Shown one piece after another: positions 6,015 through 11,010 of a DNA stretch of 64,000 nucleotides (within the stretch, counting starts at the first letter, position 1; each line of letters begins with the position of its first letter). The notes beneath the pieces were generated by a model. The model ran no database searches. It was given only the letters and a program-made list of their open reading frames with translations, and had not been told where the DNA came from. The translations under genes and the position numbers were made by a program. The DNA is from Synechococcus sp. Nb3U1 (GTDB lineage: Bacteria > Cyanobacteriota > Cyanobacteriia > Thermostichales > Thermostichaceae), in assembly GCF_021533835.1 (NCBI RefSeq), contig NZ_JAKFYQ010000002.1:62001-126000 (forward strand). The letters are read 5' to 3'.

Positions 6015-7451
6015 GTGCGACAACAAGTCTTAGGGTTGGGCATTGCCGGGCAGGCAGCAGCAAGGCTCTTGCGAGCCCAAGGGCATGAGGTACTGGCCTG
6101 GGATGAGAAAAACTCGGATCGGCTCCAGCAGATTCAGCAAGAACTGGAACCAGAAGGGATCCTGGTTCGATTGGGGGAACCGTTTCAACTGCAAGCGGGG
6201 GTGGAGCAGGTGGTGGTCAGTCCTGGCATCCGCTGGGATCATCCTCTGTTAGAGCAGGCCCGACAGAAGGGCATTGCAGTTCTGGGGGAGGCGGAATTGG
6301 CCTGGCAAAGTCTGGACTTTTTACCTTGGGTGGGGATCACCGGCACCAACGGCAAAAGCACCACCACTGCACTCATTGCAGAAATGGTTCAGGCAGCAGG
6401 CTTGAAAGGGATCCCCTGTGGCAACATTGGCCTCCCCCTCTGTCAGGTAGCTCTGGACACCTTACGGGGTGAGCGGCAACCGGATTGGATCGTGGCAGAA
6501 CTCAGCAGCTATCAACTGGAGGCCAGCACCAGCCTGATGAGCAGCAGCCCATCTGGGCCAGCTCGGATCGGGGTTTGGACAACCTTTACCCCGGATCACC
6601 TAGAACGGCATGGCACCCTGGAGCGCTATGCCAGCTTCAAAGCCCGTCTGGTGGATCGGGCCACCTGGCGGGTGCTCAATGGCGAGGATCCCTATCTTTT
6701 GGGCCGCAAGCAGGATTGGCCAAACACCTACTGGATCTGCACTCAGGATCAGTCGGCGCCGGTGCATCTGCGCAAGAATAGCCTTTGGATTCAAGCAGAA
6801 CCCATTGCCGAATTGGAAGCCTTTGGTGAACGGTGCCCAGGTCACCACAACCTACAGAACCTGCTCATGGCAGCAACAGCAGCCCATCTGGCCGGGATCC
6901 CCAACACGGCGATTCAACAGGCGATTCGATCTTTTGCTGGGATGCCCCACCGCCTGGAGCGTGTTGCCCAACTGCACATCGGCCCCACCCCCATTCGCTT
7001 CGTCAACGACAGCAAAGCCACCAACTACGATGCCGCCTGGGTTGGGTTGAATGCAGTGGAGCCCCCGATCCTCTTAATTGCGGGAGGAAAGGCCAAACAG
7101 GGAGATGCTCAAGCCTGGTTAAATCTAATTCAAACCAAGGTGGCGCGGGTGCTGCTGATTGGGGAGGCTGCCCCCGCTTTTGCCGCCGCTCTGGACAGGA
7201 TCCACTATACTGGCGTTGAGCTCGTGCAAACCCTAGATGTAGCGGTGGTGAGAGCCTTTGAGGCGGCTCGCTCCCTAGCCCAAACCCTGACGGATCCCAC
7301 CCAACCGATCACGGTCTTGTTCTCTCCCGCTTGCGCCAGTTTTGACCAGTACCGCAGTTTCGAACACCGTGGCGACCATTTCCGCACCTGCTGCCAAGCC
7401 CTCCAGGGATCCCTCGCCTGCTCTGGATCTGAGTCTGCCTTGGAACCCTGA
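6015..7451 (+). CDS. murD: UDP-N-acetylmuramoylalanine--D-glutamate ligase
   Basis: A cytosolic peptidoglycan enzyme that adds D-glutamate to UDP-MurNAc-L-Ala. Visible are the Rossmann-like N-terminus (QVLGLGIAGQAAARLL), the ATP-binding loop GITGTNGKSTTTAL, the central motif EHLERHGTLERYASFK-like TPDHLERHG, NDSKATNYDA, and the C-terminal SPACASFDQYRSFEHRGDHF. The frame is open upstream to 5838, but only the GTG at 6015 (MRQQVLGLG) gives the family N-terminus, so I start there. The 3' end overlaps the longest ftsW frame by 110 bp, so the two genes are probably translated together and make wall precursors and lipid-linked polymer in one pathway. Confidence 0.93.
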   Translation: MRQQVLGLGIAGQAAARLLRAQGHEVLAWDEKNSDRLQQIQQELEPEGILVRLGEPFQLQAGVEQVVVSPGIRWDHPLLEQARQKGIAVLGEAELAWQSLDFLPWVGITGTNGKSTTTALIAEMVQAAGLKGIPCGNIGLPLCQVALDTLRGERQPDWIVAELSSYQLEASTSLMSSSPSGPARIGVWTTFTPDHLERHGTLERYASFKARLVDRATWRVLNGEDPYLLGRKQDWPNTYWICTQDQSAPVHLRKNSLWIQAEPIAELEAFGERCPGHHNLQNLLMAATAAHLAGIPNTAIQQAIRSFAGMPHRLERVAQLHIGPTPIRFVNDSKATNYDAAWVGLNAVEPPILLIAGGKAKQGDAQAWLNLIQTKVARVLLIGEAAPAFAAALDRIHYTGVELVQTLDVAVVRAFEAARSLAQTLTDPTQPITVLFSPACASFDQYRSFEHRGDHFRTCCQALQGSLACSGSESALEP

Positions 7452-8523
7452 AGCCCGCTTGTTGCGCTGGCTAACCCTAATCTGGGTGGTGCTGGGGCTG
7501 GCGATGCTGTTTTCCGCCTCCTACCCCGTGGCCCAAAGAATCACCGGGGATGGCCTCTACTTCTTTAAGCGCCAGTTGATCTGGGTGGGGCTAGGGGCGC
7601 TCAGTTTTCTGGTCTTGGTGCAGATCCCGTTGCGCCGCTGGTTCCCGTGGGCCGGACTCCTCTGTCTACTGGGAATTGGCTTGGTCTGGGCCACCCAAGT
7701 GCCGGGGTTGGGGGTGACCCGGTTGGAAGCCAGCCGTTGGCTGGATTTGAAAGTGATCCCGATCATCCAACCCTCGGAATTTCTCAAACCCCTGCTAGTA
7801 CTGCAAGGAGCCTGGGTGTTTGGGCGTTGGTTTCATCATCCCCGCTGGTTTCGCTGTGTTTGGGTGGGCATTTTCGGTATCAGTCTGTTGGGCATTCTCA
7901 CCCAACCCAATTTGGGCACAACCGCCATTTGTGGCCTCACCCTCTGGATCATGGCCTGGACAGCAGGGATCCCTGCTCTGACGTTATTTGGCACAGCCGG
8001 CTTGGGGGCAATGGCAGCGGTGCTGAGCATCCTCAGCAAAGAGTACCAGCGGCGGCGGATATTGGCCTTTTTGGATCCCTGGGCTAGCGCCCAAGGGGAT
8101 GGCTATCAACTGGTGCAAAGTCTCTTGGCGATTGGCTCCGGGGGGTTATGGGGCAAAGGCTACGGCCTCTCCCAACAGAAGCTCTTTTATCTGCCCATTC
8201 AATACACAGACTTCATCTTCTCAGTGTTTGCAGAAGAATTTGGCCTGGTTGGATCCCTGTCGTTTTTGGGGTTGCTGTCGCTCTATGCCTTGGTGGGGCT
8301 ACGGGTGATGATGCGCTGCCGGGAGCTCCCGATCCGCCTAGTGGCCTGTGGCTGTGTGGTGTTTTTGGTGGGGCAGTCGCTGCTGAACATTGGCGTGGTC
8401 ACCGGGGCATTGCCCACAACAGGGGTGCCCTTGCCGCTGTTCAGCCATGGGGGCAGCTCTATTTTGGCGGGGTTAATCACAGCAGGATTATTAGTACGGG
8501 CGGCACGAGAATCGGAACTTTGA
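7342..8523 (+). CDS. ftsW: FtsW/RodA-family SEDS peptidoglycan polymerase
   Basis: A SEDS membrane protein that polymerises lipid II glycans with a partner class B penicillin-binding protein at the septum. The 393-residue frame has about ten hydrophobic segments and the SEDS signatures LKVIPIIQPSEFLKPLLV, GDGYQLVQSLLAIGSGGLWG, and the C-terminal TGVPLPLFSHGGSSILAGLI. The reported start is a TTG inside murD, giving a roughly 40-residue cytoplasmic leader before the first membrane helix at LLRWLTLIWVVLG. A later start would shorten the overlap. Its place directly after murD favours FtsW over RodA. Confidence 0.88.
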   Translation: MTSTAVSNTVATISAPAAKPSRDPSPALDLSLPWNPEARLLRWLTLIWVVLGLAMLFSASYPVAQRITGDGLYFFKRQLIWVGLGALSFLVLVQIPLRRWFPWAGLLCLLGIGLVWATQVPGLGVTRLEASRWLDLKVIPIIQPSEFLKPLLVLQGAWVFGRWFHHPRWFRCVWVGIFGISLLGILTQPNLGTTAICGLTLWIMAWTAGIPALTLFGTAGLGAMAAVLSILSKEYQRRRILAFLDPWASAQGDGYQLVQSLLAIGSGGLWGKGYGLSQQKLFYLPIQYTDFIFSVFAEEFGLVGSLSFLGLLSLYALVGLRVMMRCRELPIRLVACGCVVFLVGQSLLNIGVVTGALPTTGVPLPLFSHGGSSILAGLITAGLLVRAARESEL

Positions 8524-8869
8524 ATTAGGACTAGAACAAAAGAGCGCATTTCCATCGGGATCCCTTACGAAAGTCCGCATTCTAACAGTGCGGAAAAATG
8601 GGTTGACGGGATCCTATTCCTGAACTAACCTAAGTAGGGCTGAAGAGTTTCTCTTCTGGCTCTGCTAGTTTTGTGCTAGCGAAAGTTCTTTCGAGGAAAA
8701 CGATCAATAATGGACGCTTCTGGCAGTAGTTTGTGTGCTACCGAGCAGGAATTTGTCCTCGCGGATGAAGACCCTTATGGGCCCAGGTGTGGCCTACCCT
8801 GCCCTGAAAATGGCTGGGATCATTGGGTGATCGGGTTAGTGAGCTTGCTAAGTTAATTTTTGGCTTGGG

Positions 8870-8914
8870 GAGCTCATCTCGGTCGGCGATGAACCTAGCG
8901 ACTGAGCAGAGCTC
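8870..8914 (+). ncRNA. Strong stem-loop, candidate structured RNA element
   Basis: The arms are 8870-8885 and 8899-8914, 16 positions with 13 Watson-Crick pairs, one G-U and two mismatches, closing a 13-nt loop. It sits 356 bp before the mgtE ATG and is probably one domain of the larger structured region rather than a gene by itself. Confidence 0.35.
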
Positions 8915-8985
8915 CGACAGGGTGTTCCTTGTGAGAGTTTGTGTGAGCCGATTTGGCTTGCCTTGTTCAGAATTTGGGCAGCTTT

Positions 8986-9024
8986 GGGTGCTTCGGAGGA
9001 GAGGTTATCTCTATCCGGGCACCC
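8986..9024 (+). ncRNA. Long nested hairpin upstream of mgtE
   Basis: Three stacked helices fold on one axis: 8986-8991 with 9019-9024, CGGA with TCCG, and GAGA with TCTC, around a 5-nt loop. Only small bulges interrupt them. No U tract follows, so this is more likely a folded RNA domain than a terminator. Confidence 0.35.
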
Positions 9025-9270
9025 TGCTTGTTGCGTCATCAATCCAAGAGGGATCCCTTGGGATGACCGATATTGGTTTGTACATTCTTATGTGCATCCT
9101 TAACAGGACAGCTACATTTTTTAGGTGTTCATAGGCTATCTGTGAGCAACAAATTTCTGTGCTGAAGATGGCCAATGATTTTAGTGATCCTGGCGATCTT
9201 TAGGGATTGGTTTTGAGCGTTTACGGAAGGAGCATCATCCTGAGTTAATCCAAACGACTGGAGGTGTATT

Positions 9271-10653
9271 ATGCAAAGCAAAGCCAACGTACTCAACGAT
9301 CTCCTGCAACCCTTTGCTCTAGAAGCCGCCAAGCAAGAGGCCAATCGCATTGCGGCGGTGGAGCTGGTGCAGCTGTTGCTGGAACTACCCCACCACAAGC
9401 GGATCCTGGCCTTTCGGTTGTTGGAAAAAGACAAAGCAATAGCGGTGTTTGAGTACCTGCGACCGGAGCAGCAAGCGGATCTGATTCGCTCCATGGAAAG
9501 CCCAGAGGCCCTGGGATTAATCGAATCCCTTAAGCCAGATGACCGGGTGCGCCTGTTCGACGAGCTACCCGCCAAGGTGACCAAGCGATTGATGGCCAAC
9601 CTTAGCCCCCAGGCGCGGGAGAGCATCAACCTGTTGTTAGGCTATCCTCCCCGCAGTGTCGGGCACATTATGAACGTCCGCTACCTAGCGGTGCGGGATA
9701 CCGTTACCAATCGAGAAGCCCTAGAGCTGGTGCGGCAATCAAATCTTTCGGATAACGAGCTGGCCATTGTCTTCGTAGTCGATAGCCAGCGGTTTTACCG
9801 GGGGTTTGTGCGTACCATTCGCCTACTCAAAGCGGATCCTGATCTGCCCATTACCTCTCTAACCGAGGGGCAGCGCATCAGCATTGCTGCTACCGAACGG
9901 GATCTGATGGCGGCCAAGCTGCTCAAAGATCACGATCTACCAGCGGTGGCAGTGGTGGACAAAGAAGGCCGTCTGATCGGCGACATCACCTTCGACGATG
10001 TGATCGATCTGGTAGAAGAAGAGGCCACCGATGCTGCCTTTGCCAAAGCCGGGGTGGGCAACCTCCTCAGCCGAGACAAAGTCTGGAGCGAGAACCTAGT
10101 CAAAGGATCCATGTGGTACAGCGTCCGCCTGCGGATTCTGTTTTTGATCGTCACCCTCATCGGCGGAATGATCGTCGGGACGGTGATCACCACCTATGAG
10201 GAGGTTTTAGAAGCGGTGGCGGTGGCGGCCGTCTTCATCCCAGTGGTAATGGATATGGGGGGCAACACAGGGACTCAATCCACCACCATCTTTGCCCGGG
10301 GTTTGGCGTGGCAACACGTCAACACCAACCGGATCATCCCCTACATCCTGCGAGAAGCCCGGATTGGCGCCACCATGGGGGCTGTTTTGGGAGTTGCAGC
10401 TGGGGTGATCGCTTACTTTTGGCAAGGGTTGCCTAATGATGTCCCGCAATTGGGCTTGGCAGTAGGGCTGGCTTTGTTCTTTGTGGTCACCTTGGGGGCC
10501 GTCTTGGGGGCCATCCTACCTTGGGCTCTGTTAAAAATGGGCTTCGATCATGGGCCTGGAGCAGATCCATTCATCACCACCATCAAAGATTTCACCGGCT
10601 TGTGGTTTTACTTTGTCATGGTGTCGTGGTTGCTCGGCATTCAGGTTGAGTAG
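9271..10653 (+). CDS. mgtE: Magnesium transporter MgtE
   Basis: A Mg2+-gated inner-membrane channel for magnesium. The 460-residue protein has the N-terminal helical MgtE_N domain (to about residue 130, with LLELPHHKRILAFRLL and LPAKVTKRLMANLS), two CBS domains (about 135-260, with the second containing LPAVAVVDKEGRLIGDITFDD), the plug helix, and a C-terminal five-helix pore domain with the signature PVVMDMGGNTGTQSTT and the pore segment near GFDHGPGADPFITT. The ATG at 9271 follows a good GGAGGTG ribosome site. The N-terminal and CBS domains bind Mg2+ and close the channel at high concentration. The long structured stretch upstream suggests RNA-level control as well. Confidence 0.95.
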   Translation: MQSKANVLNDLLQPFALEAAKQEANRIAAVELVQLLLELPHHKRILAFRLLEKDKAIAVFEYLRPEQQADLIRSMESPEALGLIESLKPDDRVRLFDELPAKVTKRLMANLSPQARESINLLLGYPPRSVGHIMNVRYLAVRDTVTNREALELVRQSNLSDNELAIVFVVDSQRFYRGFVRTIRLLKADPDLPITSLTEGQRISIAATERDLMAAKLLKDHDLPAVAVVDKEGRLIGDITFDDVIDLVEEEATDAAFAKAGVGNLLSRDKVWSENLVKGSMWYSVRLRILFLIVTLIGGMIVGTVITTYEEVLEAVAVAAVFIPVVMDMGGNTGTQSTTIFARGLAWQHVNTNRIIPYILREARIGATMGAVLGVAAGVIAYFWQGLPNDVPQLGLAVGLALFFVVTLGAVLGAILPWALLKMGFDHGPGADPFITTIKDFTGLWFYFVMVSWLLGIQVE

Positions 10654-10727: not shown

Positions 10728-10791
10728 CTGGTAACTCCTAAGATTGAACATCAAATTTGGAAACTTTGCCTACGCATCTAGGAGGTGTGTC

Positions 10792-11010
10792 ATGAACCGC
10801 TTTCCCTCTCAAGCTCCCCTAGAGCAGTTTGAAAAGAAGCTACAGTATTTTGCCCATCGAATCTCGATCATCACGGCTCTAGAAACCGGGGGCAAGTTAT
10901 CTCCTGGCCAAGCCTTTGACATGATGGAATCCCTTTGGGTAAATCTAGAATCAACGGGTGATGAAGCGTTTTTAGCCATCAGTTATGACTATGAAGGGGG
11001 TGAGAGCTGA
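10792..11010 (+). CDS. Small conserved cyanobacterial protein, DUF7219-like
   Basis: A 72-residue soluble protein of unknown function. An ideal ribosome site (AGGAGGTG, 5 bp before the ATG at 10792) supports the start, although the frame is open to 10744. The central block FAHRISIITALETGGKLSP followed by QAFDMMESLW resembles the core of a small cyanobacterial family (DUF7219, as I remember it), in which an ETGGK(I/L)SPxEA motif precedes a helix with LW. There is no signal peptide or membrane segment. The tail is acidic. It stands alone between mgtE and the glutamine-synthetase-like gene. Confidence 0.68.
   Translation: MNRFPSQAPLEQFEKKLQYFAHRISIITALETGGKLSPGQAFDMMESLWVNLESTGDEAFLAISYDYEGGES

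Follow-up and report, generated by a model that had tools for sequence, protein, structure and literature searches.

The 64,000-nucleotide stretch of Synechococcus sp. Nb3U1 DNA analysed here (the window) has a gap of 747 nt (positions 8524–9270) between ftsW (7342–8523) and the Mg2+ channel gene mgtE, and the question raised by this locus is whether the gap controls mgtE and, if so, what does the sensing. An earlier note, made from the sequence alone, had described the gap as about 750 bp of structured non-coding sequence and had proposed either a new Mg2+-responsive leader or an unrelated small RNA gene. The reading that we favour, with a probability of about 0.62, is attenuation of mgtE coupled to an upstream open reading frame (uORF), with Mg2+ being read by the abortion of translating ribosomes.

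A long structured region upstream of mgtE

The gene presumed to be under control is the following.

9271–10653, + strand: mgtE, Mg2+ channel gene, the putative regulated gene (Pfam MgtE; NCBIfam TIGR00400)

Its product scores 322.7 bits against the NCBIfam model TIGR00400 mgtE (cut-off 232.75), and its Shine–Dalgarno sequence starts at 9260. The region upstream is indeed as strongly structured as had been proposed, with a predicted fold energy of −295.1 kcal/mol for 8524–9270 compared with −239.8 ± 6.75 kcal/mol for shuffled sequences (z = −8.2 over the 747 nt). Both hairpins singled out in the earlier note were recovered, namely 8865–8918 (8870–8914 in the note; z = −3.7) and 8984–9026 (8986–9024 in the note; z = −4.6), neither being equalled by any of 200 shuffles, and a third, longer hairpin at about 8815–8896 (z = −7.4) is an alternative to the one at 8870–8914. 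The note had seen no M-box consensus, and our searches agree: neither the window nor 11 homologous loci matched any known RNA family in Rfam at gathering thresholds, M-box (RF00380) included, and relaxed thresholds and E-values gave chance-level matches only, again with no M-box. A DNA search with the leader matched only close relatives and short pieces.

An upstream open reading frame that evolves as coding sequence

Our genome set comprised 390 genomes of the class, 23 of which have MgtE orthologues of at least 60% identity; orthologues are also present in named genomes of Nodosilinea, Arthrospira, Thermosynechococcus, Gloeomargarita and a Pleurocapsales strain. The regions 5' of these genes share short similarities and, placed side by side, reveal a short ORF starting with ATGGA. 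A peptide profile (A1) built from 13 such ORFs and searched against the 390 genomes gave about 30 matches at E < 1e-3, and it matched the leader of the window's genome with E = 4e-17, the next best match in that genome having E = 0.34. A match in G043 (E = 0.003), which has neither a start codon nor a leader, was dropped as a chance peptide match. The uORF of the window and the signals around it are listed here.

8603–8631, + strand: leader promoter, with a −35 element TTGACG (8603–8608), a 17-nt spacer and a −10 element TAACCT (8626–8631); TTGAC occurs in homologues
8693–8699, + strand: Shine–Dalgarno sequence GAGGAAA of the uORF; a similar purine stretch lies 5' of the uORF in homologues
8710–8856, + strand: uORF of 48 codons, MDASGSSLCATEQEFVLADEDPYGPRCGLPCPENGWDHWVIGLVSLLS (MDASGSS...DEDP...), supported by the peptide profile (E = 4e-17) and dN/dS
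8764–8775, + strand: acidic/proline codons DEDP, residues 19–22, the proposed ribosome-destabilising stretch; the motif occurs in homologues

Of 38 homologous leaders, 37 have the TTGAC promoter hexamer, in most cases 50–95 nt 5' of the uORF. For the N-terminal part of the uORF through DEDP, dN/dS is 0.42 in frame compared with 0.83 and 1.23 in the other frames, and none of 500 column shuffles matched the observed value; these ratios were computed within groups of relatives picked by eye after the alignment had been seen, and they come from a leader set which, being gathered by peptide similarity, is biased towards intact frames. Between the window and its nearest relative (G005), dN/dS over the N-terminal part is 0.12. 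As judged from this comparison, about 150 bases of the gap (8710–8856) evolve as coding sequence, so the description of the gap as non-coding holds for most of its length only. Other short ORFs overlapping 8524–9270 lack conservation support and were set aside.

The leader peptides follow the pattern M-(D/E)-x-x-(G/S)-S-S, with an acidic-proline motif further on. This motif is present in 34 of 40 leaders, at residues 19–30 in most, with G029 and G183 having it at residues 2–4 only; it is absent from the other six, including the congeners G001 and G004. The uORF of G097 is shortened by a stop codon. The C-terminal half shows weak protein conservation and doubles as a pairing strand (S1, see below), and the peptide has no match in Pfam or NCBIfam.

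The serine codons deserve separate mention. AGT accounts for 81 of 122 serine codons within the first nine uORF codons and for 22 of 149 later ones (window positions 8722–8733 and their equivalents). This early bias is a nucleotide-level constraint on GGTAGTAGT that a model with the ribosome as sensor leaves unexplained; complements of the ACTACT type were sought, and no conserved pairing partner for GGTAGTAGT was found.

Two mutually exclusive helices at the end of the uORF

The RNA around the 3' end of the uORF can be divided into three strands and an inner hairpin.

8838–8848, + strand: strand S1, the last uORF codons, pairing with S2 (S1:S2 covariation)
8867–8880, + strand: strand S2, pairing with S1 or S3 (covariation, window folds)
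8878–8906, + strand: inner hairpin P3 between S2 and S3, 8878–8885 with 8899–8906 (covariation in homologues, window fold)
8909–8915, + strand: strand S3, which with S2 and P3 makes the hairpin 8870–8914 (z = −3.7; covariation; its equivalent in G054 is the mgtE ribosome-binding site)
about 8816–8895, + strand: alternative long hairpin with S1:S2, exclusive with S2:S3 (z = −7.4; predicted to form if the uORF 3' end is free)

Covariation was scored on a sequence-only alignment of 32 leaders (A2), with 500 shuffles per feature. Double changes were found in 13 of 18 pairs of S2:S3 and P3 (87% of cells paired) and in six of eight pairs of S1:S2 (88.6% paired), MAFFT-misaligned S3 cells of the window's genus and a few other leaders having been left unrepaired and counted as gaps or unpaired. 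The stop codon of the uORF, 7–8 nt 5' of S2 in the main group, lies within a hairpin that covaries as well, and a contact between the S1 flank and the P3 loop shows weaker covariation; in each case no shuffle (0/500) reached the observed score. Controls with slid partners gave 30–55% pairing as opposed to 87–89% for S1:S2 and S2:S3/P3, and we give them as much weight as the shuffles, since related sequences inflate shuffle tests. RNAalifold recovered the S1:S2 helix unprompted. The comparative alignment suggested in the earlier note thus reveals covariation among relatives rather than a lack of it.

On the evidence of the alignment, S1:S2 and S2:S3 are mutually exclusive through their common strand S2, and both covary. 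Folding of the window itself gave the hairpin 8869–8915 when the uORF 3' end was constrained to be unpaired, as it would be under a ribosome, and the S1:S2 hairpin 8816–8895 when it was left free. Covariation and the constrained window folds together point to a structural potential for uORF translation to switch between exclusive RNA structures.

The leader is associated with Mg2+ transporter genes

A covariance model restricted to S2–P3–S3 (R1), searched separately from the peptide profile, returned the same loci and additionally G183 and G054, both before mgtE. R1 misses the window's genus, in which S3 has diverged; the evidence in that genus is the uORF, S1:S2, P3 and the window fold. Weak RNA-model matches in G154 and G294 (E 0.002–0.005) are not Mg2+-transporter leaders and were rejected. 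The S3-like strand of the former (L200) is the ribosome-binding site of a gene for an RRM-like RNA-binding protein, probably an unrelated hairpin hiding a ribosome-binding site.

Nearly all leader loci with a readable downstream region precede mgtE, a gene for a Mg2+-translocating P-type ATPase, or both, the ATPase of G023 being of the mgtA type (TIGR01524, 1274 bits, cut-off 611); one locus is followed only by DUF7219 and small ORFs, and two leader contigs end too early for a downstream gene to be called. All 23 genomes with a close MgtE have the leader before mgtE or before an mgtA that precedes mgtE. One leader of G139 stands before mgtA and its second leader (L145) apparently before an mgtE remnant. 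In L146 (G096) the leader precedes an Nramp-family gene, possibly a cyanobacterial Mg2+ transporter of the NrmT type; the Nramp family includes a Mg2+-transporting branch (NrmT) regulated by the M-box (PMC4072509). The leader thus accompanies Mg2+ uptake genes from two unrelated families, mgtE and mgtA, and possibly from a third, Nramp. In our view these loci very likely represent one conserved type of leader, coupled to a uORF, for Mg2+ transporter genes. Of the earlier proposal, a leader acting in cis on Mg2+ transporter genes is supported, but a simply non-coding, aptamer-like RNA or an unrelated small RNA gene is not.

Small genes recur at these loci. In more than 20 leader loci a DUF7219 (PF23856) gene is a neighbour of mgtE or mgtA (10744–11010 in the window; L042, L044, L046, L047 and L131–L168), and its product may assist or regulate Mg2+ transport. 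More small ORFs lie between the leader and mgtA in L131 (G023), L167 (G185b), L150 (G148) and L151 (G016), with products of 50 aa (MFE(I/V)CLSC...) and 59 aa (MFVLFEFxLDHIDDVLAIVCGQF...) and no Pfam matches.

The output step may differ among relatives

The role of S3 is clearest in G054 (L201), where it reads AAGGAGGTGAACC and the mgtE ATG follows directly, the predicted S2:S3 helix (−19.1 kcal/mol) hiding the mgtE ribosome-binding site; a clear S1 was not found in this leader, the best pairing reaching −7.2 kcal/mol. At roughly a dozen loci (L132, L133, L137, L143 and L150 among them), mostly mgtA leaders, S3 and an ATG start a second very short ORF (for example MKSFESPFW, MNKFQSTS, MKDFT or MQDFT). 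Taken together with G054, these leaders suggest that S3 in many relatives is a ribosome-binding strand that can be locked by S2.

The window's genus has no Shine–Dalgarno sequence in S3, the mgtE ribosome-binding site lying 345 nt further 3', and there S3 is followed by another element.

8986–9035, + strand: terminator-like hairpin (8986–9024) and imperfect U-rich tract (9025–9035), candidate attenuator output (z = −4.6; −24.8 kcal/mol in the scan)

Since S3 lacks a Shine–Dalgarno sequence and this strong hairpin follows, transcription attenuation at 8986–9035 appears the likelier output in the window's genus, and from the sequence features we give a transcriptional output there an even chance. 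Terminator-like elements follow S3 in 16 of 32 leaders, compared with 11% of shuffles; similarity of the window to its nearest relative ends near 9081. The hairpin is retained in both constrained window folds. An antiterminator formed by S3 and the 5' arm of the terminator was considered for the window and rejected, the duplex having −12.3 kcal/mol compared with about −24.7 kcal/mol for the hairpin, which is present in both folds. A search of 25 leader-bearing genomes for the RNA-binding domain of Rho found it in none of them (controls were positive), and the output is for this reason not the Rho-dependent terminator of MgtL.

A translating ribosome as the putative Mg2+ sensor

From the elements that genome comparison brings out (a promoter, a uORF under coding constraint, a pair of exclusive helices that both covary, a link to Mg2+ transporters and a lack of Rho) we infer how Mg2+ may be sensed by ribosome abortion, in which direction the switch would work and what the window's output step may be. 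A ribosome would translate the 48-codon leader peptide with DEDP at residues 19–22. With Mg2+ plentiful, it would reach the end of the uORF and cover or unwind S1, and S2 would pair with S3 (8870–8914). At low intracellular Mg2+, ribosomes would lose stability at the acidic/proline codons and stop translation prematurely, a process known as intrinsic ribosome destabilisation; if they did so before S1, the free S1 could capture S2, S3 would be released and the transporter would be switched on. In some relatives, the release of S3 would open the site where ribosomes bind for mgtE or for the second short ORF, while in the window's genus the step would more likely be transcription attenuation at the terminator-like hairpin 8986–9035. 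The expectation that the importer is on at low Mg2+ thus derives from the anatomy, abortion before S1 being what frees S3. An acidic/proline uORF coupled to exclusive helices suggests that the sensing is done by the translating ribosome and not by an RNA aptamer, and by analogy with enterobacterial leaders we consider it quite probable that Mg2+ is read through ribosome destabilisation. Several points count against the model: six of 40 leaders are without the motif, and in the window S3 does not serve as a ribosome-binding site, the U tract has imperfections and both predicted states retain the terminator-like hairpin.

The enterobacterial precedents are instructive in both their likeness and their differences. 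E. coli MgtL has an early acidic-proline motif, EPDP, and ribosomes fall off this uORF at low Mg2+ (PMC11282234). The mgtL-mgtA system of E. coli and Salmonella shares with the cyanobacterial leader a short uORF before a Mg2+ transporter gene, an early acidic-proline motif and a decision between RNA conformations by uORF translation, the last being on the cyanobacterial side a structural potential. The cyanobacterial peptide is, however, longer (typically 40–50 aa) and has a conserved N-terminus of its own, its motif lies at about residues 19–30 rather than 2–5, and the leader stands before mgtE and one Nramp gene as well as mgtA. Because these genomes have no Rho, the best-studied precedent, MgtL, cannot be transferred whole. 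Salmonella MgtQ has the ribosome-destabilising residues Asp2 and Glu5, and in its RNA alternative stem-loops mask or expose the ribosome-binding site of the transporter gene (PMC8092293). The G054 leader, with a stem hiding the ribosome-binding site directly on mgtE, resembles mgtQ of the mgtCBRU operon, but mgtQ is intergenic and has 8 codons, whereas the cyanobacterial element is a 5' leader with a uORF of 20–58 codons; the stem topology also differs (1:2 against 2:3), and S3 of the window is without a ribosome-binding site. The M-box (ykoK leader, RF00380) is likewise a leader RNA before mgtE, mgtA and Nramp-related (NrmT) genes (PMC4072509), but its model has no matches in the window and the 11 homologous loci, which have a conserved coding uORF and different helices.

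Alternative explanations

An architecture of exclusive helices suits any sensor of ribosome position, and the uORF could be a classical attenuator for a signal other than Mg2+ (charged tRNA, general translation stress or an antibiotic), the levels of Mg2+ transporters being set indirectly. Salmonella mgtM and mgtP are readers of ATP and charged tRNA-Pro. The conserved serine (AGT) and proline codons would fit such an attenuator, as would the six leaders without the acidic-proline motif. We nevertheless consider it unlikely, as the uORF does not contain runs of any one amino acid, the associated genes relate only to Mg2+ transport and not to amino acids, and the motif lies in most leaders at residues 19–30, a position that agrees with destabilisation of the ribosome at an early stage of synthesis (PMC11282234).

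Next in rank, and improbable, is a metal-sensing riboswitch, that is, a new Mg2+ aptamer formed by the RNA itself within which the short ORF merely happens to lie. The long, very stable fold, the compact structure with its conserved P3 loop and possible S1–loop contact, and the position of M-boxes at the equivalent genomic site in other phyla (PMC4072509) would all agree with it. The ORF is, however, under coding constraint, and translation must affect the switch because the last uORF codons form S1. Moreover, if Mg2+ stabilised S1:S2 and the loop contact, S3 would be freed and the importer turned on at high Mg2+, which is the wrong direction, and Rfam offers no match.

Least of all, and very improbably, might the short ORF encode a small protein working in trans (e.g. 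on the transporter) with the RNA structure incidental: its conserved N-terminus and the other conserved small ORFs of these operons would suit that role, but its C-terminal half is poorly conserved and doubles as S1, its stop codon lies in a covarying hairpin 7–8 nt before S2 in the main group, the peptide has no Pfam or NCBIfam match and the exclusive helices covary.

Significance

Mg2+ is central to chlorophyll, Rubisco and ribosomes, and, to our knowledge, Mg2+ sensing in cyanobacteria has been little described. We found no cyanobacterial leader of this kind in the open-access literature; an earlier description elsewhere is possible. We lean towards regarding these leaders as an undescribed, cyanobacteria-wide class in which the ribosome on the conserved M(E/D)xxGSS...SDEDP peptide is the Mg2+ sensor, a class independent of MgtL and MgtQ, free of Rho, and with a switch that has passed from one gene family to another (mgtE, mgtA and Nramp) and from one kind of output to another, translational or transcriptional. 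If uORF-coupled attenuation with ribosome abortion is indeed how these genes are controlled, the instability of ribosomes on acidic nascent chains would have been adopted for gauging Mg2+ in another bacterial phylum too, with an apparently unrelated peptide, and would be a general principle and not a peculiarity of enterobacteria.
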